Positions 1 to 63,354 of a stretch of 64,000 nt of DNA are shown piece after piece; positions within the stretch are counted from its first letter, which is position 1; the number at the start of each line of letters is the position of its first letter. The DNA is from Siphonodentalium dalli. Lineage: Eukaryota; Mollusca; Scaphopoda; Gadilida; Siphonodentaliidae. The stretch lies in the NCBI GenBank assembly GCA_032622095.1, contig CP136067.1:128251030-128315029 (forward strand), in the 5' to 3' direction. Both the position numbers and the translations under genes were made by a program. Below the pieces are notes generated by a model. The model saw nothing but the letters and a program-made list of their open reading frames with translations. It had not been told where the DNA came from and did no database searches.

Positions 1-53
1 TATTATCTACATGTATATCACGTGATGATCTCGGTGGGGTAGCTTCAGTCTTG

Positions 54-168
54 AATGTTAAAGTGACACTAGGCTCTCAATGGGGATGATTATTAAAGTG
101 ACACTCACTATGGATGAATGTTAAAGTAACACATGGCGCACACTGTGGGATAATGTTAAAGTGACACT
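54..168. repeat. Iteron-like direct repeats, left arm
   Basis: Four copies of a 14-17 bp repeat reading TTAAAGTGACACT (one variant TTAAAGTAACACA) start near 57, 94, 119 and 154 with spacings of about 25-37 bp. They mirror the right-arm set at 6609-6723. Evenly spaced direct repeats at the outer end of a replicon-like element resemble initiator-binding iterons, but no initiator protein is seen, so the function is inference. Confidence 0.7.
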
Positions 169-175
169 CGCATTG

Positions 176-320
176 AAAACTTCAAAAATTTCAAAAATTT
201 CAAAAAGTTCAAAAATTTCAAAAAGTTCAAAAATTTCAAAAAGTTCAAAAAGTTCAAAAAGTTCAAAAATTTCAAAAATTTCAAAAATTTCAAAAATTTC
301 ACAAATTTCAAAAAATTTCA
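176..320. repeat. 10-bp AT-rich tandem array, left arm
   Basis: About 14 units of a 10-bp motif of the form TTCAAAAATT or TTCAAAAAGT. It mirrors 6462-6600 but with a different unit order and number, as expected for fast-evolving short tandem repeats. The open frame across it (Phe-Glu-Ile/Leu repeats) is an artefact of the repeat. Confidence 0.85.
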
Positions 321-484
321 AAAATTAAACAAAATTCAGGATTTAGTCAAAAATATGGCTTGTTACCATTCATCGGAAAGCTATGGGGGTACGGTGGTGA
401 GCGCCACCGAAAACAGCAAGTGAGCGAGGGAAAAAAGAGAAAAATAACATGACAAGTGGTACATAGTACAATTTATTATATTAA

Positions 485-2248
485 CTATTCACTGTCACTT
501 TCGTCCGAATTGTCATCACTTTCGTCAGATGTGTCATTTGTTTCGTCCATGAACTTTTCTAGCAATGGTCTGTACTTTAATATTGACATTTTCACTGCAT
601 CACGATCTTCAAAACCATTCTTCATATATTTCTCCACTTTATCCATGACACTGTTGTGCAGAGTACCATTGCGCAGCCACATATTCTTTATTATTGTCCA
701 AGCATAAACATTCATAAATAGCCTCATGCCTTCAGTTTTAAGATCTGTACTTTTAAGGTCCTTGTCAGCTTGTACTTTTGCCTCTTTTTCTGTCGAGCCA
801 TTTTCCATATACGTTTCCACGTTATCACTCCATGCTTCTTGTGCTTTATCTCTACTCTCATCACACAAACTTTTGAAGTATTCATCTTCATTCGATTTAA
901 TTTTCTTATTCTGACTATCATCCGTGTCTTCAGTTAATTTTCGTTTTAACTTATTTTCTTGACACCAGTTTTTTACGTGTCTCTGGACATCATGCTGATC
1001 TTCGAACAAAAGCCCACAGTCATTGCAAGGGTACGACATGTCTTCTCGAATGCCTATGTTTTTATGGTTTTCTTTATTAATTTCATTGATCTCACCAGGT
1101 GTCCTTATGTCCTTAGTATAGCCATTATGTTGACCCTGGGGCACAATATAATTATATGTCATGCACTCCCGTTGACCAGGGAGATCTCTGTCATCATATT
1201 TCATCTCATTCCGTTGATCCGGGCTATTGTTGTCATCACATTTCACCACATTCTGTTCATCTGGGTGCGCGCTGTCCTTATGGAGATTATATTTCATGCC
1301 ATTCCATTCACCCATATGTTGGTTCGTGTCCTCTTTTAGCACATTCTGTCGCAGCCGTAATGTGTCCGGGGTTGCGGCTTTTAAATCCACCAGTAGGTAA
1401 CCGTACGGTTCACTCGTCGCTTCCGAAAACTCTCGCATCATACGTTGAGGGCATTCAGGATACATCTGTCTTGATAATGTTGAAATTAAACCCTTGTCAA
1501 TTGGATTATTGAACAATACCAAATATTGACAATTTCGTCGTTGCGTCGGATCTTTGTTGTAGTAGAAATTCTGGTTCAAACTTATCAAAGATAAGTTCAA
1601 ATGGTGACTTCCTTCGGAATGTAAATCATTAACTCTCTGGTCTTTTGATGAAGTTTGCATCAAGTCATCGAGTACAACTAGATTTTTATACTGGGGGTTG
1701 ATAAGAGAATCCAAGTTTGCTGGTATTCCCCGTATAAAGTTGACCTGAGGGGTGACGGTATACTTTATGTCATCATATAGGGGCTGCCAATATTTATAAA
1801 ACCATATTATTCTGTCAGGTGCGGGTGATATTTTTGAGGCAGACTTTTGTAGCAAGGTTTTCACGAAGTATGTCTTCCCACTAGATGTCGGTCCACTTAC
1901 GCATGCTGTGAATGGATGCTTGAAAATAAAATCTGCTTGGACATTAGCCATTGGATCATCAAAGCAGGATGTTATGTCGCTTTGTTGCTGTTTCCCCCGC
2001 TGGTGTTGTTGTTGTTGTTGTTGTTGTTGTTGTGGATGTTGTTGTTGTTGTTGTGGTTGTGGTTGTTGTGGTTGTTGTTGTTGTGGTTGTTGTTGTTGCT
2101 GACGATGCTGCTGTTGTTGCTGTTGTTGTTGTTGTGGCTGATGATGATGCTGTTGTTGTTCTGAAGGCGTGTGTTTAACTTTGATATGACGCTTCAAACT
2201 ATCTTGCCAAGCATAGGCACTTAAACACTCTTCACACTTATACTTCAT
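485..2248 (-). CDS. Zinc finger-polyQ-P-loop ATPase (A32/FtsK-like), left-arm copy
   Basis: 587 residues. Residues 4-25 form a C2H2 finger (CEEC..., His-x4-His), followed to about residue 90 by a Gln-rich tract. A P-loop NTPase domain spans roughly 105-310, with Walker A GPTSSGKT, Walker B VVLDDLM and a following region ending in LLVDLK. About 330-410 there are degenerate ~15-residue repeats (MKYNLHKD, VKCDDNNS, MKYDDRDL, MTYNYIVP). A second finger of CCHC form (CNDC...HVKNWC) follows, then a charged region and an acidic Asp/Glu/Ser tail. The fold resembles A32-like packaging ATPases of DNA viruses and Polinton-like elements (family inference; not searched). The start ATG lies about 50 bp downstream of a TATA box and an AATAAA follows the stop. 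It differs from the right copy mainly in polyQ length and a few residues. Confidence 0.8.
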   Translation of the reverse strand: MKYKCEECLSAYAWQDSLKRHIKVKHTPSEQQQHHHQPQQQQQQQQQHRQQQQQPQQQQPQQPQPQQQQQHPQQQQQQQQQHQRGKQQQSDITSCFDDPMANVQADFIFKHPFTACVSGPTSSGKTYFVKTLLQKSASKISPAPDRIIWFYKYWQPLYDDIKYTVTPQVNFIRGIPANLDSLINPQYKNLVVLDDLMQTSSKDQRVNDLHSEGSHHLNLSLISLNQNFYYNKDPTQRRNCQYLVLFNNPIDKGLISTLSRQMYPECPQRMMREFSEATSEPYGYLLVDLKAATPDTLRLRQNVLKEDTNQHMGEWNGMKYNLHKDSAHPDEQNVVKCDDNNSPDQRNEMKYDDRDLPGQRECMTYNYIVPQGQHNGYTKDIRTPGEINEINKENHKNIGIREDMSYPCNDCGLLFEDQHDVQRHVKNWCQENKLKRKLTEDTDDSQNKKIKSNEDEYFKSLCDESRDKAQEAWSDNVETYMENGSTEKEAKVQADKDLKSTDLKTEGMRLFMNVYAWTIIKNMWLRNGTLHNSVMDKVEKYMKNGFEDRDAVKMSILKYRPLLEKFMDETNDTSDESDDNSDESDSE

Positions 2249-2336
2249 TTTCCTATATAATCAGTGAAATCGATCGTTCTTCTATACACCTATATTTATA
2301 TAGAACAGAAACAAGGGAAAGTGGTGGACTAGTTCA
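2249..2336 (-). promoter_or_regulatory. Promoter between the two left-arm ORFs
   Basis: Mirror of 4432-4519. On the minus strand a TATATAAATATA stretch (about 2293-2306) stands ~50 bp before the ATPase ATG, and the spacer is only 88 bp. A core promoter for the ATPase gene is inferred from TATA position. Confidence 0.5.
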
Positions 2337-2759
2337 CTAGTTCAGGCTGTCATTCACAACGTCTCTTCGTGTTGTTTGTACTGGATACAAATTTATCACA
2401 TTGGCTACAATACAACCTACCCATCCAAATGTCAATGCAATTATGAGTGATTTCAACATGCACACTCTATTATATAGATATGTGTAACCTGGTGACATGA
2501 TGAAATCCATTGTGTACTGAGTTGACCTCCGGCTTCGTGCCGATTGGGTACTGAGCTGACCAATGACTGCTTTGTATCTTTTGACATATAAGTCTTTACT
2601 TTTCTTACGCCGGAGGTGTTGTTGTTGTTGTTGTTGTTGTTGTTGCGGCGGCGGCGGCGGCTGATGGTGCTGTTGTTGTTGTTGTTGTTGTTGTGGCTGC
2701 TGTTGTGGAGTTATTGTTCTTAGGTAAAAATGATGATACCCACCCTGTTTGCCCCCCAC
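2337..2759 (-). CDS. PolyQ/basic protein with one membrane span, left-arm copy
   Basis: 140 residues counted from a GTG codon at 2759; no ATG precedes it. It has an N-terminal Gln/Pro/His-rich tract, a basic segment (LRRKKSKDLYVKRYK) and one hydrophobic span near residues 108-128 (KSLIIALTFGWVGCIVANVI). The frame stays open upstream of the GTG through a Cys-rich stretch (YCRECRSC) to a TAA, so the true start may be a spliced exon or a non-AUG codon. It is preserved in both arms with one Gln difference, supporting coding function. I do not recognise the family; a small virion or membrane protein is possible but unproven. Confidence 0.55.
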   Translation of the reverse strand: MGGKQGGYHHFYLRTITPQQQPQQQQQQQQHHQPPPPPQQQQQQQQQHLRRKKSKDLYVKRYKAVIGQLSTQSARSRRSTQYTMDFIMSPGYTYLYNRVCMLKSLIIALTFGWVGCIVANVINLYPVQTTRRDVVNDSLN

Positions 2760-2925
2760 CAGATCAGGAACGATAACTCTATCCGAAGTACACGACCTAC
2801 ATTCTCTGCAGTACTGCTGTTGGTGTTAGTCTAGACAGTTTGACCTATATTCTCCGCCCACGCGTCGGTTTATTTGTATACCGGTTGGGCATGTCCAAAC
2901 AATTTCAAAAAACTTAAAAAATTAA
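2760..2925 (-). promoter_or_regulatory. Leader module upstream of the left-arm gene pair
   Basis: Mirror of 3866-4011. It contains ACCGACGCGTGGGCGG and ATAGAGTTATCGTTCCTGAT on the minus strand. The same module recurs in decayed form at 6820-6960. Its place before the gene pair suggests a promoter/leader, but no strong TATA is evident. Confidence 0.45.
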
Positions 2926-3077
2926 ACAAAATTCAGGATTTAGTCAAAAATATGGCTTGTTGCCATTCATCGGAAAGCTATGGGGGTACGGTGGTGAGCG
3001 CCACCGAAAAAAGCAAGTGAGCGAGGGGAAAAAGAGAAAAATAACATGAAATGTGGTACATACTACAATTTATTATA
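2926..3077 (+). repeat. Inverted copy of the 3' UTR module
   Basis: This is the reverse complement of the 3' UTR module at 3694-3845, and related to the one after the ATPase stop at 6302-6460. It includes the CGGTGGTGAGCGCCACCG stem-loop and ends at 3077, where the palindrome gives way to unique loop sequence. Confidence 0.75.
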
Positions 3078-3267
3078 CTGAAGTAGTAATTTTTATAGGC
3101 GCCAAATTACCATCCAAGACGTATACCCTTATAAACTGCGGGTCAGTCCTAGTAACGCGCACGTCAACGCCGCCGGCGGCTGTTGTTGTTGTAGTTGTTG
3201 TTGCTGTTGATACAAATGTCAATGCAATTATGAGTGATTTCAATATGCACACTGAACTTTAGCCATA
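3078..3267 (+). other. Loop of the palindrome with rearranged arm fragment
   Basis: Not paired with the other side. Positions about 3208-3255 (AATGTCAATGCAATTATGAG and flanks) repeat 2425-2467, an antisense piece of the membrane-protein gene, next to a short GTTGTT repeat at 3179-3208 resembling its polyQ tract. The loop therefore includes a scrambled fragment of arm sequence followed by the start of the small basic ORF. Confidence 0.6.
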
Positions 3268-3489
3268 ATGGGGACTCCGTACTATTATGACTTTGATCTT
3301 AAAAAATATGTACCCTACGATGACTCGAAGTACCTACCCGAGACTGAAGCGAAACCTGAAAAACTTATAAGGAAAGCCGCAGCTAAGAAGATAAAAGTTA
3401 AAGAGATAAAAGGAGGAAGAGCGAAGAAGACAAACATTGGAAAAGTTAAAAAGGAAACTCCAAACGACATATTCACTGAACTAAAATGA
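3268..3489 (+). CDS. Small basic Lys/Arg-rich protein in the palindrome loop
   Basis: 73 residues beginning MGTPYYYDFDLKKYVPYDD. The second half is very basic (about residues 35-65, e.g. AAAKKIKVKEIKGGRAKK). The composition and aromatic N-terminus recall small DNA-condensing core proteins of adenovirus-like particles, but this is resemblance only. Its stop overlaps the next ATG in ATGA (3486-3489), an arrangement typical of compact viral genomes and rare between animal genes. It is single copy in the window. Family unrecognised. Confidence 0.5.
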   Translation: MGTPYYYDFDLKKYVPYDDSKYLPETEAKPEKLIRKAAAKKIKVKEIKGGRAKKTNIGKVKKETPNDIFTELK

Positions 3490-3689
3490 GTAATTTACCT
3501 AAATTTTCGAAGGCTATTGAAAGGCCGGTGGATAAAGTGGACAAATATATGAAGAATGGTTTTGAAGATAGTGATGCAGTGAAAATGTCAATATTAAAGT
3601 ACAGACCATTGCTAGAAAAGTTCATGGACGAAAACAATGACACATCTGACGAAAGTGATGACAATTCGGACGAAAGTGACAGTGAATAG
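3486..3689 (+). CDS. Short paralogue of the ATPase C-terminal tail
   Basis: 67 residues. After a distinct first 14 residues (MSNLPKFSKAIERP), about 52 residues match the last part of the arm ATPases (DKVxKYMKNGFEDxDAVKMS... to the acidic tail) with about three substitutions and no frame break. It starts within the ATGA overlap with the upstream basic ORF and is followed by the same 3' UTR module and AATAAA (3697-3702). Retention of frame suggests the acidic C-terminal module works alone, or that it is a recent truncation. Confidence 0.55.
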   Translation: MSNLPKFSKAIERPVDKVDKYMKNGFEDSDAVKMSILKYRPLLEKFMDENNDTSDESDDNSDESDSE

Positions 3690-3865
3690 TTAATATAATA
3701 AATTGTAGTATGTACCACATTTCATGTTATTTTTCTCTTTTTCCCCTCGCTCACTTGCTTTTTTCGGTGGCGCTCACCACCGTACCCCCATAGCTTTCCG
3801 ATGAATGGCAACAAGCCATATTTTTGACTAAATCCTGAATTTTGTTTAATTTTTTAAGTTTTTTG
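3690..3865 (+). promoter_or_regulatory. 3' UTR module after the truncated paralogue
   Basis: Contains AATAAA at 3697-3702 and a stem-loop CGGTGGCGCTCACCACCG near 3764-3781. It is a direct-orientation copy of 6302-6460, so the same tail occurs twice on the plus strand, and its inner part is also the start of the palindrome arm. Confidence 0.6.
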
Positions 3866-4011
3866 AAATTGTTTGGACCTGCCCAACCGGTATACAAATA
3901 AACCGACGCGTGGGCGGAGAATATAGGTCAAACTGTCTAGACTAACACCAACAGCAGTACTGCAGAGAATGTAGGTCGTGTACTTCGGATAGAGTTATCG
4001 TTCCTGATCTG
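3866..4011 (+). promoter_or_regulatory. Leader module upstream of the right-arm gene pair
   Basis: Begins with GTTTGGACCTGCCCAACCGG and runs through ACCGACGCGTGGGCGG and ATAGAGTTATCGTTCCTGAT. It is shared with the left arm and with the decayed copy at 6820-6960. It lies immediately after the 3' UTR module, so gene cassettes abut head to tail. Confidence 0.5.
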
Positions 4012-4431
4012 GTGGGGGGCAAACAGGGTGGGTATCATCATTTTTACCTAAGAACAATAACTCCACAACAGCAGCCACAACAACAACAACAACAACAGCA
4101 CCATCAGCCGCCGCCGCCGCCGCAACAACAACAACAACAACAACAACAACACCTCCGGCGTAAGAAAAGTAAAGACTTATATGTCAAAAGATACAAAGCA
4201 GTCATTGGTCAGCTCAGTACCCAATCGGCACGAAGCCGGAGGTCAACTCAGTACACAATGGATTTCATCATGTCACCAGGTTACACATATCTATATAATA
4301 GAGTGTGCATGTTGAAATCACTCATAATTGCATTGACATTTGGATGGGTAGGTTGTATTGTAGCCAATGTGATAAATTTGTATCCAGTACAAACAACACG
4401 AAGAGACGTTGTGAATGACAGCCTGAACTAG
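4012..4431 (+). CDS. PolyQ/basic protein with one membrane span, right-arm copy
   Basis: 139 residues from a GTG at 4012, one Gln shorter than the left-arm copy in the polyQ tract. It has the same Gln/Pro tract, basic segment and hydrophobic span near 107-127. Reading upstream the frame is open from about 3950 (HQQQYCRECRSC...) without an ATG, so initiation is uncertain. It is followed after 88 bp by the ATPase gene, presumably functionally linked. No recognised domain. Confidence 0.55.
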   Translation: MGGKQGGYHHFYLRTITPQQQPQQQQQQQHHQPPPPPQQQQQQQQQHLRRKKSKDLYVKRYKAVIGQLSTQSARSRRSTQYTMDFIMSPGYTYLYNRVCMLKSLIIALTFGWVGCIVANVINLYPVQTTRRDVVNDSLN

Positions 4432-4519
4432 TGAACTAGTCCACCACTTTTCCTTGTTTCTGTTCTATATAAATATAGGTGTATAGAAGAACGATCGATT
4501 TCACTGATTATATAGGAAA
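4432..4519 (+). promoter_or_regulatory. TATA promoter of the right-arm ATPase gene
   Basis: TATATAAATATA at about 4465-4476 lies some 45-50 bp before the ATG at 4520. This spacer is conserved in both arms. Core promoter role inferred. Confidence 0.5.
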
Positions 4520-4746
4520 ATGAAGTATAAGTGTGAAGAGTGTTTAAGTGCCTATGCTTGGCAAGATAGTTTGAAGCGTCATATCAAAGTTAAACACACG
4601 CCTTCAGAACAACAACAGCATCATCATCAGCCACAACAACAAAAACAGCAACAACAGCAGCATCGTCAGCAGCATCGTCAGCAACAACAACAACCACAAC
4701 AACAACAACCACAACAACCACAACCACAACAACAACAACAACATCC

Positions 4747-4782
<36 letters not shown>

Positions 4783-6301
4783 CCAGCGGGGGAAACAGCA
4801 ACAAAGCGACATAACATCCTGCTTTGATGATCCAATGGCTAATGTCCAAGAAGATTTTATTTTCAAGCATCCATTCACGGCATGCGTAAGTGGACCGACA
4901 TCTAGTGGGAAGACATACTTCGTGAAAACCTTGCTACAAAAGTCTGCCTCAAAAATATCACCCGCACCTGACAGAATAATATGGTTTTATAAATATTGGC
5001 AGCCCCTATATGATGACATAAAGTATACCGTCACCCCTCAGGTCAACTTTATACGGGGAATACCAGCAAACTTGGATTCTCTTATCAACCCCCAGTATAA
5101 AAATCTAGTTGTACTCGATGACTTGATGCAAACTTCATCAAAAGACCAGAGAGTTAATGATTTACATTCCGAAGGAAGTCACCATTTGAACTTATCTTTG
5201 ATAAGTTTGAACCAGAATTTCTACTACAACAAAGATCCGACGCAACGACGAAATTGTCAATATTTGGTATTGTTCAATAATCCAATTGACAAGGGTTTAA
5301 TTTCAACATTATCAAGACAGATGTATCCTGAATGCCCTCAACGTATGATGCGAGAGTTTTCGGAAGCGACGAGTGAACCGTACGGTTACCTACTGGTGGA
5401 TTTAAAAGCCGCAACCCCGGACACATTACGGCTGCGACAGAATGTGCTAAAAGAGGACACGAACCAACATATGGGTGAATGGAATGGCATGAAATATAAT
5501 CTCCATAAGGACAGCGAGCACCCAGATGAACAGAATGTGGTGAAATGTGATGACAACAATAGCCCGGATCAACGGAATGAGATGAAATATGATGACATAG
5601 ATCTCCCTGGTCAACGGGAGTGCATGACATATAATTATATTGTGCCCCAGGGTCAACATAATGGCTATACTAAGGACATAAGGACACCTGGTGAGATCAA
5701 TGAAATTAATAAAGAAAACCATAAAAACATAGGCATTCGAGAAGACATGTCGTACCCTTGCAATGACTGTGGGCTTTTGTTCGAAGATCAGCATGATGTC
5801 CAGAGACACGTAAAAAACTGGTGTCAAGAAAATAAGTTAAAACGAAAATTAACTGAAGACACGGATGATAGTCAGAATAAGAAAATTAAATCGAATGAAG
5901 ATGAATACTTCAAAAGTTTGTGTGATGAGAGTAGAGATAAAGCACAAGAAGCATGGAGTGATAACGTGGAAACGTATATGGAAAATGGCTCGACAGAAAA
6001 AGAGGCAAAAGTACAAGCTGACAAGGACCTTAAAAGTACAGATCTTAAAACTGAAGGCATGAGGCTATTTATGAATGTTTATGCTTGGACAATAATAAAG
6101 AATATGTGGCTGCGCAATGGTACTCTGCACAACAGTGTCATGGATAAAGTGGAGAAATATATGAAGAATGGTTTTGAAGATCGTGATGCAGTGAAAATGT
6201 CAATATTAAAGTACAGACCATTGCTAGAAAAGTTCATGGACGAAACAAATGACACATCTGACGAAAGTGATGACAATTCGGACGAAAGTGACAGTGAATA
6301 G
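4520..6301 (+). CDS. Zinc finger-polyQ-P-loop ATPase (A32/FtsK-like), right-arm copy
   Basis: 593 residues with the same order as the left copy: N-terminal C2H2 finger, a longer Gln/His tract (about 30-95), Walker A GPTSSGKT near 130, Walker B VVLDDLM near 210, degenerate ~15-residue repeats around 335-415, a CCHC finger (CNDC...HVKNWC), and a charged tail ending DESDSE. Differences from the left copy include VQED for VQAD, KDSEH for KDSAH, DDID for DDRD, and about six extra residues in the polyQ tract. The ATG follows a TATA box by ~50 bp, and AATAAA (6309-6314) lies 8 nt past the TAG. An A32-like ATPase would pump DNA into a capsid; here the N-terminal fingers suggest DNA targeting. The family call rests on Walker motifs and spacing only. 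Confidence 0.8.
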
Positions 6302-6461
6302 TTAATATAATAAATTGTACTATGTACCACTTGTCATGTTATTTTTCTCTTTTTTCCCTCGCTCACTTGCTGTTTTCGGTGGCGCTCACCACCGTACCCC
6401 CATAGCTTTCCGATGAATGGTAACAAGCCATATTTTTGACTAAATCCTGAATTTTGTTTAA
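6302..6461 (+). promoter_or_regulatory. 3' UTR module of the right-arm ATPase gene
   Basis: AATAAA sits 8 nt after the stop. A CGGTGGCGCTCACCACCG stem-loop follows near 6378-6395. Conserved with 3690-3865 in direct orientation and with the left arm in inverted orientation. Confidence 0.55.
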
Positions 6462-6600
6462 TTTTTGAAGTTTTTTGAAATTTGTGAAATTTGTGAAATT
6501 TTTGAAATTTTTGAACTTTTTGAACTTTTTGAACTTTTTGAACTTTTTGAACTTTTTGAAATTTTTGAACTTTTTGAACTTTTTGAAATTTTTGAAGTTT
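6462..6600. repeat. 10-bp AT-rich tandem array, right arm
   Basis: Units such as TGAACTTTTT and TGAAATTTTT. Mirror of 176-320 but with different unit content, showing independent slippage in the two arms. Confidence 0.85.
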
Positions 6601-6608
6601 TCAATGCG

Positions 6609-6723
6609 AGTGTCACTTTAACATTATCCCACAGTGTGCGCCATGTGTTACTTTAACATTCATCCATAGTGAGTGTCACTTTAATAATCATCCCCATTGA
6701 GAGCCTAGTGTCACTTTAACATT
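6609..6723. repeat. Iteron-like direct repeats, right arm
   Basis: Four repeats of AGTGTCACTTTAACATT type at 6609-6625, 6645-6660 (GTTACTTTAACATT variant), 6672-6688 and 6707-6723. Mirror of 54-168. Confidence 0.7.
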
Positions 6724-6819
6724 CAAGACTGAAGCTACCCCACCGAGATCATCACGTGATATACATGTAGATAATATACCATTCATATGGAGAAGTCTGG
6801 ATATAACCAGCGGGTCATG

Positions 6820-6960
6820 TCCGGACATGTCCAACCGGTACAAATAGACCGACGCGTGGGCGGAGAATATAGGTCAAACTCCAACGGTAGTACTGCGGAG
6901 TAAAAGTCGGATAGAGTTATCGTTCCTGATTTGAGGCCAAACGGGCCCTGTATCATCACC
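6820..6960 (+). pseudogene. Decayed third copy of the leader module
   Basis: Matches 3880-4035 in direct orientation: CCAACCGGTA, GACCGACGCGTGGGCGG, AGAATATAGGTCAAACT, AGTACTGCGGAG, then GATAGAGTTATCGTTCCTGAT and a diverged start of the membrane-protein frame with small deletions and stops. It lies just after the outer repeats of the right arm, so element order repeats head to tail (leader-genes-tail-leader). The block also has a CATGTCCGGACATG palindrome just upstream (6817-6830). Confidence 0.7.
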
Positions 6961-7122
6961 CCTATACTGCATATCAGACTCACAAACGTTTGATATGTCA
7001 CCTCACACTCTTGTCTATACCGATATATACTTCGTTCCGCTATACTAAATCTATTTTCAATCAATTTCTTTCTATTATTCCATAAGAAAAAAAATTCTCA
7101 TTTTGATATATCTATCGATCCA
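6961..7122. other. Element-flanking AT-rich sequence
   Basis: I see no gene. Short minus-strand frames cross the junction of the decayed leader but have no domain. Confidence 0.4.
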
Positions 7123-7735: not shown

Positions 7736-7832
7736 AGATAATGGTTCGTGTTAGAACGTGACGCTGATGTTGTCATGTGTGGTTACCACACATGACAACA
7801 CCAGCGTCACTTTCTAACACGAACCATTATCT
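7736..7832. repeat. Near-perfect 97-bp foldback
   Basis: AGATAATGGTTCGTGTTAGA on the left pairs with the complementary right arm ending AACCATTATCT; the arms meet at GGTTACC with essentially no loop. Only one or two mismatches. Foldback MITE. Confidence 0.8.
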
Positions 7833-9817: not shown

Positions 9818-10553
9818 GTCTTTGAATAGTTGATACAGACACTGACCGCAGCTTCTGACAACTCAGGCAGTGGTTGGATGGCGACAATCGACTGAGTGAG
9901 TGAGCGATGATTTTAGGTGTATAAGTTGGTTGTCAAGCGTCAACTGATTTACATGCGCCAAACAAAATCCCACTCTAATTTAGTCGGATTCGTCGTCTCC
10001 ATGTTAAACCTGGTTTAGGCAAACCGTTAGTTTTAAGCCGCCGTCTGACAGGTAAAACCATAGTTTAAGCTAGTGGCCGCAGGTCTAAGTGACGCATTCG
10101 TCATCTCGTGTTTAAACCCGTCTTCATTTACGATATCTAACATTGACGCATTCGCTTGGTGCTCTTCTATATACGTGCAGTGAACTGTTGTCATCAAAAC
10201 GAGACAGTGTTGAAATAGTTCGTTATTTGTCCACAAAAAAACTATTTCACTTACTAAGAATAGTCAAACCAGGCTCTCACGCTTTTAAAATGATAGTTTT
10301 ATAAAGTGGGTTATCTATCTTCAATCATGATTCCCCACATTATATTATGTAATATAATAGTTATATACGCATGCAACTATGATACGTACTACATATTTGG
10401 CTGTATTGGTCTGAATTAATGCTATCAACGAAATGGTACATCATTCATTAGATGCCATTTATTACTGGTCTTCCATGTTACCACGCCTTATTTTATTTAA
10501 TAATCACACGCGTAAACAGTTCTGATTGACATTAACATGGGTACACAATCTTA
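9818..10553. other. Intergenic, no supported gene
   Basis: No coding signal that I trust. Short frames lack domains or splice context. Confidence 0.5.
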
Positions 10554-11066
10554 CATAAGGATTAACTGTCATGTGGACTGTTTTTATGGAGATGTAACGG
10601 TGAGGTAAGTGGACATAACTTGTGTAAAACCCGAAGGGTTTTACATACAAGTTATGACCACTTACCTCACCGTTACATCTCCATAAAAATAGTCCACATG
10701 ACAGTTAATCCTTATATTTATATACATTTAGCGAAAAAGCCACTTTTGTAAATATGTTTAAATCGAAAAGTGTATCGTGACAAGATCAGCCCAAAATACC
10801 CAATAGCACCCTTGGCGAAAGTTAATAGGAACAATTTCTCTTCATGTTGAAACCCGATGATGTATTAAGTCAATCCTGCGCGAGTCAAAATGCGCCCAAA
10901 GCATTACGCGTTCGTCTTTCCAAACCTAATGACGTATCGATGGTGTTATTAGCTTGGTGTTATATGAGGCGTTGCGCATTCACCGAGAAATAACTGCAAC
11001 TAGCCACGTGGGCGCCGACCAATCAGAATGCTGGATTTAGTGATGACAACACTTAGTGTGTACATA
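10554..11066. repeat. 513-bp hairpin element, tandem unit 1
   Basis: Begins with a ~160-bp near-perfect hairpin: ATAAGGATTAACTGTCATGT on the left, centre AAAACCCGAAGGGTTTT, and complement ending ACAGTTAATCCTTAT near 10715, with one mismatch. It is followed by a ~350-bp body ending near ACACTTAGTGTGTACATATA. The next unit repeats at +513 bp. Confidence 0.85.
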
Positions 11067-11582
11067 TATAAGGATTAACTGTCATGTGGACTGTTTTTAT
11101 GGAGATGTAACGGTGAGGTAAGTGGACATAACTTGTGTAAAACCCGAAGGGTTTTACATACAAGTTATGTCCACTTACCTCACCGTTACATCTCCATAAA
11201 AATAGTCCACATGACAGTTAATCCTTATATTTATATACATTTAGCGAAAAGCCACTTTTGTAAATATGTTTAAATCGAAAAGTGTATCGTGACAAGATCA
11301 GCCCAAAATACCCAATAGCACCCTTGGCGAAAGTTAATAGGAACAATTTCTCTTCATGTTGAAACCCGATGATGTATTAAGTCAATCCTGTGCGAGTCAA
11401 AATGCGCCCAAAGCATTACGCGTTCGTCTTTCCAAACCTAATGACGTATCGATGGTGTTATTAGCTTGGTGTTATATGAGGCGTTGCGCATTCACCGACA
11501 AATAACTGCAACTAGCCACGTGGGCGCCGACCAATCAGAATGCTGGATTTAGTGATGACAACACTTAGTGTGTAAATATATA
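11067..11582. repeat. 513-bp hairpin element, tandem unit 2
   Basis: Nearly identical to the preceding unit, with a perfect hairpin (the unit-1 mismatch is absent). An inverted third copy is at 16930-17445. Confidence 0.85.
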
Positions 11583-26272: not shown

Positions 26273-26910
26273 TTACACTTGGGGGTGGTGCACCATCATA
26301 TACACCCCCAACTTGGTATCCATTCCGAATACTCCACCTGCTATACCCGGCCAACCCCCGAGATCGATTCCGTTGTCAGGAAGATGTAGGTTATTTGCGG
26401 TGCAGTTATTGGCAAACCACCAACCGCTGTTAGTATCAGCTGCGCAGTTATTACAGTCCTTATCCTTCGTGCAAAATTGTCCATCATTCAGTCCGCTTAA
26501 GACAAATCCGTCAGCTAAGGGTTTGGTGCCCCATGCTTTGTAATTCGTGTAGTGCATTTTAAATTTGTTTTTATCTGTGTCCACACAGAATTCATCGTAA
26601 TAAGCCTGCTTGAAACCAACCCCTACGCTTAGTTTGCACGATTTGTCTTTCGGAAGTAGGTGTATATTGTCCAATCCAAGGAAGGCCTCGGAACGGATCA
26701 CTCCAAATCCCTGTCTATACTCAGCCCATGTCCGATCGAAGCTAAGCTGTGGTGTGTTATTCCATCTGTAGTGTTCTCCCCTTCTCAGCAGGAATGTCCA
26801 GCCGCCCCAATCGAACTCACACCAGACGGGGAATTCAGCTTTCTTCGTATCAGGTTGTACCATAAGCTGACCCTGGCCCGTGTAACCAGCCGCATGAGCT
26901 TCAGAGCAGT
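26273..26910 (-). CDS. Terminal exon of a fibrinogen-related domain protein
   Basis: About 211 codons ending in TAA. The exon opens DCSEAHAAGYTGQGQLMVQP, the usual start of a fibrinogen-related domain, then CEFDWGGWTFLLRR, FDRTWAEYRQGFG, FLGLDNIHLL, FCTKDKDCNNCAA and GWWFANNC. These are the landmark motifs of FReD lectins (ficolin, tenascin C-terminus, mollusc FREPs). A minus-strand acceptor CCAACAG|AC at 26910/26911 gives a phase-1 exon start; an in-frame TAA just upstream shows the frame cannot extend. The C-terminus is unusual: the expected lysine/arginine-rich strand is replaced by GGVFGMDTKLGVYMMVHHP. The domain usually binds acetylated sugars outside the cell. A signal-peptide exon on the same strand at 38512-38565 could belong to it, unproven. 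Polyadenylation signal 26252-26257. Confidence 0.85.
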
Positions 26911-27466
26911 CTGTTGGGGATTCAGAAACTTAAATACATTAACCACGGATCATACTGGTCGGAAAAATCTTTTTGGCCAATTTCAGAATTTGTTTTGCCA
27001 TTTTTCAGATATTTTTGCCAAATTTAATAATAAAAATATGAGATTATCAAGAAAAACAGACACTAAAACCAAAATATAAAGAAACACACACAAAACTAAC
27101 TAATACATTTCGAGTTGGAAAAGAGTGATAACAGAAATGAATCGCCTTCATGATCTTAATTTGTCACAAAAAAAGCAGTATAAAGTATCATACTTTTGAG
27201 AAGCAGGTGCGAATATTGATAAGTTGTTATTTAAACACAGACGCTCAACTGCTGACTATCTGTTACCGAATTAAGGTTCATCTGTATACCTGGTAACTTG
27301 AGAGGGGGTTGCTGGTTTGCTGGTTGCTTGAAACATTTTGGTAAAACAGTATTGGCCAATCTAAATGTTCTTTGGCCATTTTCCAAATAAATTGGCCACC
27401 GACTGTGTAAACCCTGACTTAACACCTTAACACATTAACACATTGACAACTTAACACCTTAACAAT
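26911..27466. other. Intron or intergenic DNA upstream of the FReD exon
   Basis: Holds a poly-pyrimidine/acceptor context next to the exon and a short AACACATT/AACACCTT microsatellite at 27418-27474. No further exon identified. Confidence 0.5.
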
Positions 27467-50503: not shown

Positions 50504-50817
50504 CGAACTATTTGCGTTTACGGTCGAAAACCTCGACATACGAACAAGCCATCTGTTTAGCTGTGCCGACATAGTTGTCATTCCATCTGCGTCTACTAAA
50601 TTTACAATTATTGAACAGTTGTCAGCCGAGATTTATCGGCAGGCCATCACTCATTCACTGGCATCAGGCTCCAGCATCATGCCAAAAATCAAAAACAACG
50701 AACAAGCCATCTGTTTTGCTGTGACGACATAGTTGTCATTCAATCTGTTTACAAACCTTACAAATTAACAATAACATTTGACAGCTGAGATTTAAGGCAG
50801 CCCCTCCAGACTCCATC
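50504..50817 (+). promoter_or_regulatory. 5' leader with duplicated start-codon region and uORF
   Basis: About 50540-50698 is repeated at 50699-50835 (AACAAGCCATCTGTTT, ACATAGTTGTCATTC, CAGC..GAGATTTA, CATCATGCCAAAA). The duplication includes the gag start codon. The upstream ATG (50679-50681) opens a 17-codon uORF ending in TAG at 50730-50732, before the true gag ATG at 50818. Confidence 0.75.
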
Positions 50818-52224
50818 ATGCCAAAATCAAAAAAGAAGACGGGAGCGAAACGCTCAACAGAGACTACCACTCCTCTTCCCAAACGCACGGCGAGGAGAGG
50901 GGTATCTAATCAACAGGTGATCACCCCACCTGAGCAGACTTATGTTATTAATAATAATAACCCTTGGAATGTCACACTTAATCCAAAGAATTGGACGGTA
51001 TCTCACTTGAGATCGCAGCTGAAATCAAAAAACATTATGGTACCGGACTCACTGAAAAAACCTGACCTGGTTAAGATATTTGAGATTAACACAAGTACTC
51101 CTGCTCCGAATGCCGATTCACAAGAATCAGACGAGTGTCCAGACATTGAAGACGACATCAGAACTGCCCAACAACAGTCGATGTCAAACGCATTCGACAA
51201 TTCCAACCGGCACGGAATGGCGAATACTAATAAGAACCAACAATCAAATCTTGCTCAAGATCAGATTTCATCACTATTAGCGGCAAATCAGGCGCTCAGA
51301 GACAGCTTGGCTTCCTTCGCAGCGCCACACACAAGCGGGCCGTCATCAAGCCAAGCTCAACATGGATTCAAACAGAATCAGAATGGTATGCAACAGTTCA
51401 TGTCAGATTCATGTAATGACTATAATCAATTTGTGCCAGATACATGTATGCCTATAAACCCTTTGCTTAATAGTACCGGCGTGGCGTTGTCACAATTGCC
51501 GGATATTGATCAAGATATCTCACCCCAAATAATGGCTGAAATATTGGCTGGTAGGGATGTAAATTTTGCCAAACTTATTATACCTCCTCTGGATACTGCA
51601 AAGGCAGATAAATTTGACGCTCGCCTGTCTAAATCGCTTTCCTTGGCTGAATTCATAAGGGCGTTCGATAAATTTAGGACTATCATTTGCGAAGTCTTTC
51701 CAAGTAGAAGGGAAGAATTGGATAGCTACTTGAACGATATCAGTAGGATATCTAATCAATATGGTGATGCATTTTACACTTACCATCTTGCATTCTCGGC
51801 AAAAGCTGCAGCCTGGTTAGTCAAAGGAACCAAAGTAAATTGGGGAATTAGGGACAATAATGTGTTTTGCTCCATGTTTACAAGCCAGAAATCACTGGCT
51901 TGTGCGGCATGTCAGAATCCGTCACACACCATTAAGTTCTGTCCTCCGAATTTCACTCCTCGCAATTCGACAAATTACACAAATAACTTTCAATGCCGGC
52001 CTGGGAACAACTTCTATTCAGCAACAAACCCAGCTGGGGAATATAACAACAAAGTTTGTATGCAATTCAATTCAGTTGCTGGCTGCTCATTTGGGACGAA
52101 GTGCAAGTATGAACACATCTGTTTTTTATGCAGATCAGGCCATCATCCACGGCAAGTTTGTAGCGCTAAAAACGCAAAACCAATGCAGTCCTCCAATGTC
52201 GCTCGTTCCAATTTTCAGAAATGA
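50818..52224 (+). CDS. DIRS Gag-like protein with SAP-like and zinc motifs
   Basis: 468 residues. The basic N-terminus (KSKKKTGAKR) is followed by a SAP-like helix-extended motif at about 59-90 (WTVSHLRSQLKSKNI...LVKIFE), then a Gln/Asn/Ser-rich linker and an alpha-helical region near 245-345. Zinc motifs: CCHC knuckle at 362-375 (CAACQNPSHTIKFC), CCCH finger at about 414-433 (C-x8-C-x5-C-x3-H), and a second CCHC knuckle at 435-448 (CFLCRSGHHPRQVC). Packages element RNA in the usual DIRS scheme. The ATG is in the duplicated leader. It ends in TGA (52222-52224), followed by C, and the RT continues in the same frame. Confidence 0.88.
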   Translation: MPKSKKKTGAKRSTETTTPLPKRTARRGVSNQQVITPPEQTYVINNNNPWNVTLNPKNWTVSHLRSQLKSKNIMVPDSLKKPDLVKIFEINTSTPAPNADSQESDECPDIEDDIRTAQQQSMSNAFDNSNRHGMANTNKNQQSNLAQDQISSLLAANQALRDSLASFAAPHTSGPSSSQAQHGFKQNQNGMQQFMSDSCNDYNQFVPDTCMPINPLLNSTGVALSQLPDIDQDISPQIMAEILAGRDVNFAKLIIPPLDTAKADKFDARLSKSLSLAEFIRAFDKFRTIICEVFPSRREELDSYLNDISRISNQYGDAFYTYHLAFSAKAAAWLVKGTKVNWGIRDNNVFCSMFTSQKSLACAACQNPSHTIKFCPPNFTPRNSTNYTNNFQCRPGNNFYSATNPAGEYNNKVCMQFNSVAGCSFGTKCKYEHICFLCRSGHHPRQVCSAKNAKPMQSSNVARSNFQK

Positions 52225-53880
52225 CTCCCTACGGACCCTACCACTTCCGGATCCAATCCTATAATACCCAGTTCAATTACGACATCGGTAAACGTTCAGT
52301 TTCTTTCAACTGCATTAAGTTCTCACCCGGGCCGGTCATTTGTCAACAAATTGATAGCAGGCTTTACAAATGGTTTCGATACGGGTTTGTCCGAAGTCCC
52401 TGTTAATTCGCTTGAATTAAAAAATCTCAGATCGGCATTAAATAATTCCGCGGACGTAACAGAACTCCTAAAGAAAGAATTAGACAAAGGGTTCATATTC
52501 GGTCCGTTCAACCACCCCCCATTTCAAACTTTTCGGATCAATCCTATTGGAGTAGCTGAAAGAAAAATTTATAAAAAGAAAAGACTGATCGTAGACTTAT
52601 CTGCACCGCATTCTTCTCCTGACAATGATTCTCTCAATTCTTTGATAGATAAAGAAAAATTTTCTCTCACATACGTCACCATCGACCATGCGGTAAAAAT
52701 CATTCAACAGTTAGAACCGGGAAGTTGGTTATTCAAGTGTGACTGCTCAAATGCTTTCAAATTGTGCCCTATCAAAAAAGAGTTATGGCCTTTTTACGGC
52801 ATTAGCTGGAATAATAAATATTATTTTTACTCCACACTGTGCTTCGGTAGTAGGTCATCACCAAAACATGTTGACACTCTTTCGCAAGCTATATGCTGGA
52901 TAGCTACAAATACAATGGGTATAGCCAATTTGTTACATTACCTGGACGATTTTCTGGGAATATTTCCCAATAAATTTGACCCTCACCCAGCGGTTGATCA
53001 GATAAACACATTATTCCACGAAGCAGGTGTTCCATTAGCCCAGGAGAAGTCAATAGGCCCCACTCAATGTCTTGAATTTCTGGGTGTAATTTTGGATACA
53101 GAACGCATGGAGTGTCGTTTACCAATTGACAAATTAACCAGGCTGCAGGAAAAGGTCAGAGAATTCATGACTAAAATAACATGTACCAAACTAGAGCTTT
53201 TAAGTCTGTTAGGATATCTAAGCTTTGCTGCAAAATGTGTCCGACCTGGTAGAGCTTTCATGTCTTATTTAATATCTCTGTCTACCACGGTCTCGCAGCT
53301 ACACTATCACATTAATATTTCATCTGCATGTAGAAAGGAATTAGCAATGTGGAATCAATTCCTAACTCACTGGAATGGAGTTTCTTTTTTCATTGACAAT
53401 GAAATCATAACCTCAGACGATTTTAGTATAGTCACGGATTCAAGTTCATTATTGGGATTTGGGGGCTACTTTCAAACACATTGGTTTCAATCAAAATGGC
53501 CGATGGAAGTCACAGAACTCCGAAATCATGAATGGTCTATGGCATACCTGGAGCTCTACCCCATTGTCGTCGCGGCAATGATATTTGGACACCAATGGTG
53601 CTCTAAGCGAATTATGTTCATATGCGATAACGAAGCAACCGTTTATATTTTAAGAAAAGGAAGATCAAAGATTGATTCTATTATGTGTTTAATGAGACGA
53701 CTTACATTGACAGCACTAGAACATAATTTCATGTTTTATGCTCAATATATTTCTACCAAGGATAATAAGATAGCTGACAGCCTTTCTCGTTGTCGTTTTC
53801 AGGAGTTCAGACGATTGGCACCGGAGGCAGATCTTCTTCCATTCAAATGCCCTCCACATTCAGCAATAACGGAAATCTGA
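52225..53880 (+). CDS. DIRS reverse transcriptase-RNase H
   Basis: 551 residues read from just after the gag TGA; no ATG precedes the catalytic core, so expression as a Gag-RT readthrough fusion is inferred. It has an N-terminal region with FVNKLIAGFTNGFD, RT palm motifs RLIVDLSAPH, FKCDCSNAFKLCPI, the catalytic LHYLDDFLG (YxDD), and LEFLGVILD. An RNase H-like domain follows with TDSSSLLGFGGYF, ELYPIVVAA and FICDNEATVYIL, then DNKIADSLSR near the end. No stops or shifts within. Its TGA overlaps the next frame's ATG (TGATG at 53878-53882). Confidence 0.9.
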   Translation, partial: LPTDPTTSGSNPIIPSSITTSVNVQFLSTALSSHPGRSFVNKLIAGFTNGFDTGLSEVPVNSLELKNLRSALNNSADVTELLKKELDKGFIFGPFNHPPFQTFRINPIGVAERKIYKKKRLIVDLSAPHSSPDNDSLNSLIDKEKFSLTYVTIDHAVKIIQQLEPGSWLFKCDCSNAFKLCPIKKELWPFYGISWNNKYYFYSTLCFGSRSSPKHVDTLSQAICWIATNTMGIANLLHYLDDFLGIFPNKFDPHPAVDQINTLFHEAGVPLAQEKSIGPTQCLEFLGVILDTERMECRLPIDKLTRLQEKVREFMTKITCTKLELLSLLGYLSFAAKCVRPGRAFMSYLISLSTTVSQLHYHINISSACRKELAMWNQFLTHWNGVSFFIDNEIITSDDFSIVTDSSSLLGFGGYFQTHWFQSKWPMEVTELRNHEWSMAYLELYPIVVAAMIFGHQWCSKRIMFICDNEATVYILRKGRSKIDSIMCLMRRLTLTALEHNFMFYAQYISTKDNKIADSLSRCRFQEFRRLAPEADLLPFKCPPHSAITEI

Positions 53881-54877
53881 TGAGCATGGCTAATAAATTA
53901 TGGTTGAACTCAGTCGGTCATTCAACCCGTCAACAATATCAAGTGGGGCTCAATAATTTACGCACTTTTGCGGCTTTAAACGGTTCAGTGCTTTTAGCCC
54001 CGCACAACCTACCTGTTATCGATGAAAAATTATTGTTGCAATTTACCACATATTGCCACTATCATAAGAATTTTACTTATTCCACAATTAAATTATATCT
54101 CTCTGGAATAAGATTGTTCTACATTGCATACGGTCTAGGTAATCCATTAGAGCAGCCTAATGGTTTACCATGGACAAAGCTTTCAGGTGTGTTAACTGGC
54201 ATTAAAAGAAGCAAAAATATACCAAAATACCCAGATTGCCAATAACACTCAACATTTTGAAACAAATGTTTCAGAAGCTTAAAAGTAGTCATAAACCATA
54301 TTCCGATTTTAACTGTCTGCTCCTGAAAACGACATTAGCTGTTGGGTTCTATGGATTTATGCGTTCGGGTGAGTTTGCTGTCCGCAATAAAACAAGTTCT
54401 GTATTGACTATGAAGGATATTGTTATTGGGCCAAATAACAAGACTGCTACTTTGCACTTACAACAGTCAAAGACCGACCCTTTCAGAAAAAGTGTCTGCA
54501 TCAAGTTTTTCTGCTTGCCGGATATTTGTCCAGTTCATCTGCTCGAGAAGTATCTGGTTCTACGTAAGGCACAAGGTGCTTCACCCTAAGATCCATTGTT
54601 TATTACAGATGTTGGTACGACATTGTCCCGCCAGTTTTTCATATCAAAACTTAAACATCTATTAGAATTGTGTAACATTCCATCTAGATTTTATTCCGGA
54701 CATTCACTGCGCTCTGGCGCTGCGACCTCAGCTTGCAATGCTCGATTAGAAGATCACCTCATTAAAACTTTAGGTCGATGGCAATCTAGCTGTTATGTTA
54801 CATATATTCACACCCCAGACAGCACTCTGTACCAAGCCCATCGCGCAATGGTTTATAATTATTATCCCATAAGGTAG
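53847..54877 (+). pseudogene. Tyrosine recombinase of the DIRS element, broken
   Basis: An N-terminal SAM-like core-binding domain (SMANKLWLNSVGHSTRQQY..) runs in one frame to about 54240, then a one-base shift moves to another frame, and an in-frame TAA at 54588-54590 interrupts again. Catalytic signatures are visible across the pieces: first Arg in GFMRSGEFA, H-x-x-R in GHSLRSGAAT, then LGRWQSSCYVTYI with the nucleophilic Tyr. The enzyme would integrate circular cDNA without target duplication. Start could be ATG 53847 or the 53880 ATG in TGATG. As written, this copy could not make the full enzyme. Confidence 0.85.
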
Positions 54878-62517: not shown

Positions 62518-62785
62518 GATTTATGCTAAGGGTTTTGACACTGGAAAGGTATAACTACATGTACTGAATACCCGTGTATTGAATGAACATCCGGGAACAC
62601 AGGGAGGACTGGACGTTGCAATTGAGCAGTTGTCACTGATTGATGATTTGTGATTTATGCTAAGGGTTTCGATACTTGTGGAAGGGTAGAAATACACGTA
62701 CTTAATATATGTTTATTGCATGAACACCCGGGAACACAGAGAGGACAGGCCGTTGTAGTTGAGTGTTGTCACTGTTTGATATACC
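62518..62785 (+). repeat. ~132-bp tandem duplication upstream of the PAN gene
   Basis: TTGATTTATGCTAAGGGTTT...GAACATCCGGGAACACAGGG at 62518-62649 is repeated at 62650-62785 (GTGATTTATGCTAAGGGTTT... GAACACCCGGGAACACAGAG). It lies 90-360 bp before the ATG, so it may duplicate promoter elements. Confidence 0.8.
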
Positions 62786-62873
62786 ACTTTTGTGCTTCAT
62801 TCAACGGCATTCGACATTTGCGAATTGTATATATTCTTCACACCCGTGCATTACATACAACCGTGAGTGGTCT

Positions 62874-63192
62874 ATGATATTAGCGATGAACATAACACGT
62901 GCTCGCGTTTACATTCACATCATACTGATCGTCGCCGTAATGCGCAGTCAGGGTGCGTCTCGTTTCTCGAGAATTAGTGCACTCGACGGACTGAGCAGAC
63001 CTGGATTATTCGAAACCACATCGGGAAGAAGTCGCATGGAATGTGCCACGGGCTGTATCAAGGTGGAGTGTGTGTCGTTTATCTACGACGCAAAGAAGAA
63101 CACCTGCCTCTTTTATGATTGGCCTCTGTCGGTCACGAATGCAAACACTTTGCTCACAGAGGGCAGCACCGCACATGTCGTGGCCGAGGACG
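62874..63192 (+). CDS. First exon of a secreted PAN/apple-like protein
   Basis: About 106 codons. The N-terminus MILAMNITRARVYIHIILIV... forms a signal peptide (an internal ATG at 62886 gives the tighter MNITRARVYIHIILIVAV). The mature part has MECATGCIKVECVSFIYD then NTCLFYDWPL, matching the spacing of cysteines in PAN/apple domains (C-x3-C-x4-C, then a later C). A canonical donor GACG|GTGAGT closes the exon at 63192 in phase 1. PAN domains bind protein or sugar outside the cell, and in molluscs often precede other lectin domains. A TATATA at 62828-62834 is only ~45 bp upstream. The rest of the gene lies beyond the window. Confidence 0.7.
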
Positions 63193-63354
63193 GTGAGTAA
63201 TTTGGTCAAAATACATTTCTTTCTATTTAAAATTTTGTTTGTCTCATTTATGTACAATTGGGATTATGGCAAATTAGGTTGCTCTTCTCTCCATTCAATT
63301 ACAACACAATATTATAACACGATAGTATATAATATGTGTAAATAGTTTTGTGTG
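63193..63354 (+). other. Start of the PAN gene's first intron
   Basis: Begins GTGAGTAA. No coding. Confidence 0.6.

Follow-up and report, generated by a model that had tools for sequence, protein, structure and literature searches.

A dispersed family of giant palindromic, virus-like mobile elements in the genome of the scaphopod Siphonodentalium dalli

We analysed a 64,000-nucleotide (nt) stretch of the Siphonodentalium dalli genome (GenBank assembly GCA_032622095.1, contig CP136067.1; C7:128251030-128315029 in a genome of 2.227 Gb on nine contigs), hereafter the window, which begins inside a giant palindromic element encoding a predicted A32-like P-loop ATPase in each arm. A preliminary description based on the letters of the window had proposed a palindrome with arms of about 3.07 kb, and pairing of positions 1-3077 with 3694-6776 confirmed this. 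Half-versus-half alignment returned 3065 aligned bases with 11 mismatches and four gaps, all four within simple repeats; arms of this length are far beyond chance. The first mismatch between the arms fell at base 198. Because no element end was visible near base 1, we suspected that the window edge cut the palindrome, and extension into the genome showed that it continues 182 nt to the left of base 1 and rightward to base 6958. Within these borders the copy is 7140 bp long, has the ends TGATGATA...TATCATCA and is flanked by the 6-bp target duplication CCCCTA. Base 6776, previously taken as the element end, is the mirror of the window's first base.

The window element belongs to a dispersed family. 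Probing the genome with the arm gave 61 matches, 40 of them full or nearly full length with 97-100% identity, in 28 places (figures for the best 40 of 2298 candidates). We read 20 stretches: 19 covered 18 other places, and one was the window copy's left flank. The 6-bp target duplications were identical in all 20 copies for which both ends were seen (the 15 first-compared copies, L021, L049/L050, L051, L052 and L058/L060); this count leaves aside L029, L030/L031 and L036, whose ends were not both seen, and L053-L057 and L059, which are halves only. Among the 15 first-compared copies every end was TGATGATA except the left end of L028, which was TGATGATG, and the near-fixed ends of the family can be written (TGA)2TA...TA(TCA)2. 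Other copies are asymmetric or internally deleted, and the deletion derivatives retain the ends. It is nearly certain that this is a real, dispersed, palindromic mobile family. The preliminary description had held that a lack of repeat-bounded copies would speak against a mobile element; repeat-bounded copies were found, and dispersed copies with distinct target duplications rule out an ordinary host gene. Among open-licence texts, searched by title and abstract opening and not including Repbase or other repeat libraries, we found none that describes palindromic elements of this kind.

For eleven copies we aligned the two halves with each other, and nine of these copies (L020-L027 and L032) were near-perfect palindromes, with halves of 3738-4016 nt that were 98.98-100% identical outside gaps and 2-12 gap runs each. 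The halves of L034 and of the window copy were 97.35% and 95.09% identical, respectively, and both copies have altered centres. Complete copies carrying the ATPase gene (the ATPase class) measure 7.5-8.0 kb and are palindromic throughout, with their halves joined at a GC-rich hairpin. From the centre outward, each half-unit comprises the hairpin tip, a segment X, open reading frames (ORFs) of 73 and 67 amino acids (aa; ORF73 and ORF67), a 3' trail block, an internal block T', a polyglutamine (poly-Q) frame, the ATPase gene, the trail block again, a tandem array, iteron-like repeats and a terminal block T. Four iteron-like repeats at each end had been noted before and were found; the outer arrays, described earlier as 10-bp, have a measured period of 9 nt.

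The tip is a GC-rich stem capped by an asymmetric, G-rich loop, which in most copies measures about 17 nt. Its pattern occurred in 16 stretches, of which 11 belong to the ATPase class and the others are L051, L056, L060, L052 and L041; L027 carries a variant. The pattern was not found in L053-L055 or L057-L059, stretches that end near the midpoint. A genome search with the tip was read at the best 40 places of 279 candidates. The hairpin loop occurs both ways round, but we abandoned a flip/flop argument based on this, because a palindrome once inserted has no orientation of its own. In its intact form the element is an inverted dimer of two half-units joined by a central hairpin, and the window copy is an internally deleted, damaged member of the family (Table 1). 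Its 616-nt loop arose because it lost the hairpin tip and kept X on the left only and ORF73 and ORF67 on the right only. The loop with two ORFs given in the preliminary description is thus correct as to the ORFs, but the loop itself is a rearrangement.

Table 1. Features of the palindromic element and its right flank, in window coordinates.
Feature	Position	Strand	Remark
Part of 7140-bp palindromic element within window; first 182 nt lie left of window	1..6958	.	Genome extension
Four iteron-like repeats, left end	57..168	+	
9-nt tandem array, left	176..326	.	
587-aa mirror copy of ATPase ORF	485..2248	-	
162-aa mirror copy of poly-Q frame	2337..2825	-	
T' copy in left arm	2731..2901	-	
Loop of window copy	3078..3693	.	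Lacks hairpin at centre, one X copy and one ORF73/67 copy
Remnant of central segment X	3078..3253	-	In both arms beside hairpin in complete copies; here left only
73-aa basic ORF (ORF73)	3268..3489	+	In both arms of complete copies; here right only
67-aa ORF (ORF67)	3486..3689	+	Overlaps ORF73 stop by ATGA; C-terminus resembles that of ATPase ORF
Internal block T'	3870..4040	+	71% like T (gapped alignment)
161-aa stop-free frame	3946..4431	+	Contains poly-Q and a hydrophobic stretch; Met only within last 57 residues; without Pfam match
593-aa ATPase ORF	4520..6301	+	C2H2 finger, poly-Q, A32-like P-loop ATPase, second C2H2 finger, acidic tail
Outer right copy of 3' trail block, contains AATAAA	6306..6482	+	177 nt, four occurrences
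Other trail block copies	304-480, 2901-3077, 3694-3870		
9-nt tandem array, right	6460..6601	.	
Four iteron-like repeats, right end	6609..6720	-	Three keep their end distance in 11/11 ends compared
Terminal block T, ending in TATCATCA	6817..6958	+	Also at ends of sister elements
Right 6-bp target-site duplication CCCCTA	6959..6964	.	Flank reading; left copy outside window

The 593- and 587-aa ORFs of the window matched Pfam Pox_A32 above the curated cut-off (E=5.6e-6 and 6.8e-6, respectively), in agreement with the zinc finger-poly-Q-P-loop ATPase first described for each arm. The longest stop-free run in 200 Markov simulations of positions 1-6776 was 208 codons, compared with 597 observed. 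The poly-Q/membrane ORF, likewise described for each arm, is present as a frame of 161-162 aa, but its coding status is doubtful because it has only a late Met and was open in only 14 of 27 arms. In the 16 stretches examined for open frames, from which this poly-Q count also comes, the ATPase frame was open in 20/27 arms, ORF73 in 26/29 and ORF67 in 25/28. A single-sequence AlphaFold2 model of the ATPase domain was poor (predicted local distance difference test score 32) and gave no structural support for the assignment, and a search of solved structures with the ATPase returned only six weak matches (E 0.42-0.95), mostly to zinc-finger or low-complexity chains. Scans of IMG/VR with the ATPase found no relative, and searches of prokaryote genomes and phages yielded none either. 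Loci L001-L003 and L004-L010, drawn from degenerate ATPase motifs, had no tblastn or phmmer match to the element proteins and were discarded; one further degenerate motif search gave no loci.

As the preliminary description had remarked, none of the sequence read contained a recognisable polymerase, integrase or capsid gene. Pfam gave no PolB match in the four ORF kinds of the window element. Neither these ORFs nor six sister ORFs matched the rve integrase, for which no genome-wide search was made, or a double jelly-roll capsid, of which a remote homologue would escape such a scan. No transposase was recognised in the ORFs scanned, which did not cover every copy. No Rfam match was found within the window.

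Block T led to sister elements with other cargo. At the best 40 places of 966 candidates, a genome search with T showed many outward pairs 2.7-14.3 kb apart. A 233-aa frame (ORF233) lies in L051, L056 and L057, with a 220-aa version in L053; the one frame scanned had no Pfam match above cut-off. The L051 palindrome has 97.6% identity over 4900 columns. Both arms of the L058/L060 element encode a Bcl-2 homologue of 205 aa (PF00452, E=3.3e-14; Bcl-xL the best match among solved chains, E=4.6e-9); the arms differ by 29 mismatches and eight gap openings in 2865 columns and surround a similar tip with a shorter loop. L055 encodes the ATPase with a different N-terminal finger (Pox_A32, E=4.6e-6). 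L049/L050 (C1:79762915-79777161) is a 14.25-kb near-perfect palindrome with T ends, iterons and array, whose pieces are 99.975% identical over 4021 columns and 99.04% over 3137. We considered this class as an autonomous helper and rejected it, as both pieces read proved to be another palindrome with only short ORFs. Common to the classes are T, the iterons, the arrays and mostly the trail, as well as the tip wherever the centre was read outside the 14-kb class. Three iteron motifs lie approximately 347, 312 and 284 nt from the end, within 6 nt either way, in 11/11 ends compared.

L057 (C3:258413235-258419250) is one half of a 12-kb pair and has a mixed cargo, in which an ORF233 stretch 99% identical to L051 is combined with sequence of the 14.25-kb class; L049 covers 4866 of its 6016 nt. 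At L030/L031 (C4:280.82-280.84 Mb), ATPase-class arms flank an insert that has its own inverted arms of 0.5-0.6 kb, C2H2 ORFs and 9-nt array-like stretches. This insert is perhaps another related palindromic element nested inside the first.

We compared 22 arms of 11 elements over the part from trail to array and found that the arms evolve in concert. Distances within an element were 0.0003-0.0094, against a between-element median of 0.0108; the nearest arm was the arm's own partner for 20/22, and the two arms were sisters in 9/11 elements with support of at least 0.726. The arms differed in 63 of 572 cells at 52 shared polymorphic sites, whereas 2000 random pairings gave a mean of 235 and a minimum of 110. 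Such concerted evolution could come about in two ways: by conversion within the chromosome, or by a folded strand through which each cycle of copying or repair would pass.

A polymerase that could serve the family in trans was sought among other loci. The PF03175 profile, which we take to represent protein-primed type PolB, gave 149 matches at 69 loci, a minimum, since these were the loci scored among 1596 candidates. The open frames were 803-1330 aa long and one match had an internal stop; none of 14 control genomes had a match (0/14). A young, abundant PolB-bearing family is likely present in this genome. Among the listed loci, no PolB lay within a listed palindrome, no inverted PolB pair occurred within 30 kb, and one PolB lay no more than 30 kb from a palindrome mark, at a distance of some 9 kb from the L035 hairpin (marks came from the arm, T and tip searches, with one mark per place for the arm probe). 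The listed PolB genes and the listed palindromes are therefore separate. Given the abundance of long open PolB frames in the genome, Polinton/adintovirus-type elements are candidate helpers. The PolB frames fall into two size classes, mostly about 952 and about 1312-1330 aa, with many identical scores. At C5:75.04 Mb two of them lie 7 kb apart in the same direction.

The rest of the window contains a short near-perfect hairpin seen by eye (7741-7830), direct repeats about 512 nt apart that are 99% identical (10552-11546), an ORF with a fibrinogen C-terminal domain (26276-26929, minus strand, E=5.8e-28) and a PAN-domain-like ORF slightly under the Pfam cut-off (62763-63197, plus strand). Positions 50782-54589 (plus strand) hold ORFs with a HeH/LEM domain, a reverse transcriptase match just under cut-off and a weak phage-integrase SAM-like match, which we take to be a DIRS-like retroelement.

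The earlier view of a virus-like, perhaps satellite-like mobile element is borne out by the dispersal of the copies, their sharp ends and 6-bp duplications, the A32-type ATPase and iterons that keep their positions. Encapsidation and self-synthesis, which the preliminary description had also suggested, and autonomous replication were not borne out by the genes recognised in the sequence read. We favour, with a probability of about 0.55, a non-autonomous, Polinton/adintovirus-like satellite family that is copied by fold-back and supplied with polymerase and integrase in trans. The free form would be a linear DNA with a folded hairpin tip on one side and an open, probably protein-primed T end on the other. 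Synthesis by a polymerase supplied in trans would start at T, and the displaced strand would fold on itself via the tip, so that each arm could be copied from, or repaired against, the other. Adenoviruses repair one terminal repeat from the other through a panhandle. A retrovirus-type integrase, also in trans, would then join the two T ends of the dimer to the target with a 6-bp stagger, and the cargo (the A32-like ATPase with zinc fingers, the Bcl-2 homologue and ORF233) might act in packaging or host-cell survival. We infer the fold-back cycle and the helper jointly, at slightly better than even odds.

The main rival is a foldback-type DNA transposon family that is moved by an ordinary transposase in trans, has captured viral and host genes and has had its arms equalised by chromosomal gene conversion. 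With its long inverted arms and outer tandem arrays the family is reminiscent of the foldback elements Tetris and Galileo; deletion derivatives retain their ends, and concerted arms can arise by in-place conversion, with which the shared-allele differences reported below also agree. However, cargo such as an A32-type ATPase and a Bcl-2 homologue, TG...CA short-repeat ends and 6-bp duplications better suit an integrase of viral or retroviral type. The hairpin tip has been retained across classes despite their different cargo, and no transposase was recognised in the stretches read, although not every copy was scanned. We consider a foldback transposon rather unlikely. We give still less credence to a multipartite virus or its remnant, in which each palindromic class would be a genome segment and functions would be pooled. 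Common T, iterons, arrays, mostly trail and (outside the 14-kb class) tip around different genes are what such segments would have, but no polymerase, integrase or capsid class was among the elements read, and of the listed PolB loci none forms an inverted pair within 30 kb and only one lies within that distance of a listed palindrome mark. Palindromes can also arise as read or assembly artefacts, and a Polinton fragment could have undergone a one-off inverted duplication; dispersed copies with distinct target duplications, the same ends, private mutations and different cargo make both very unlikely.

Several observations weigh against the satellite reading that we favour. The ATPase frame is closed in some arms, and element-private ATPase changes after the poly-Q (21 synonymous, 61 not) look neutral; shared changes (6 synonymous, 13 not) are too few to judge. 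Because the private coding changes look neutral, recent copies show no selection on the cargo. The arms of L024 and L032 are not sisters, at nodes of low support, and L024_L and L032_R are mutually nearest. Of 138 arm differences, 58 involve alleles that other elements also have, which means that some arms already differed when they were inserted; array misalignment may contribute to these differences. In-place gene conversion could equalise the arms, and the centre of the 14.25-kb class differs from that of the other classes. Finally, the end motif of the family, (TGA)2TA, differs from the AG/AGT type of vertebrate Mavericks, given as (AGT)2, (AG)3 or (AC)3A (PMC8097293).

Whatever the mechanism, this mobile family consists in its complete form of palindromes of roughly 6 to 14 kb, despite the known fragility of long perfect palindromes in chromosomes. 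With tip and ends conserved and cargo swapped, fold-back replication can be put to a direct test in an animal. Should a Polinton-type helper be confirmed, the family would represent a satellite system that depends on an integrating DNA virus and carries a packaging-type ATPase and an apoptosis-regulator homologue. More tentatively, and in our estimate possible though doubtful, the classes may form a set of hairpin-ended linear DNAs with common signals and exchangeable genes, copied by fold-back and inserted as giant palindromes, that is, a multipartite satellite or virus sharing a polymerase and an integrase in trans. If true, this would be a new kind of eukaryotic mobile or viral genome.

Foldback elements such as Galileo and Tetris have very long inverted repeats with tandem arrays and a short centre, and in these respects they resemble the family described here. 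Unlike them, the family has virus-like cargo in its arms, 6-bp duplications and a conserved GC-rich central hairpin, and no known transposase was recognised in its ORFs scanned. With Polintons/Mavericks and adintoviruses the family shares an A32/FtsK-type ATPase signature and the 6-bp duplication, and its inverted ends bear a motif built of short repeats in a similar style, although the motif itself, TGATGATA, is a different one. Unlike in Polintons, the ORFs scanned included no recognisable PolB, integrase or capsid gene, and by its gene content the family is not a Polinton. It may, however, work as a Polinton satellite. Vertebrate Mavericks have 6-bp duplications and short-repeat end motifs and, when intact, measure 12.7-24.6 kb with terminal repeats of 46-1447 bp (PMC8097293), whereas complete ATPase-class copies are 7.5-8.0 kb and palindromic throughout. 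An adomavirus found in data from a Tegillarca clam is reported to have both a zinc-finger gene, Ziftr, and a packaging-ATPase homologue, PacK; some adintoviruses are likewise reported to have Ziftr (PMC11071296). Snapback genomes of adeno-associated virus are self-complementary and are reported to replicate with Rep and helper functions (PMC8235507), which indicates that a folded inverted dimer can replicate with help. Like these genomes, the family takes the form of a folded inverted dimer whose two sides have a terminal part in common, although no parvovirus gene was recognised in it. Snapback genomes are subgenomic by-products of a virus population, whereas the family described here is dispersed in the chromosomes and combines a conserved tip with interchangeable cargo.

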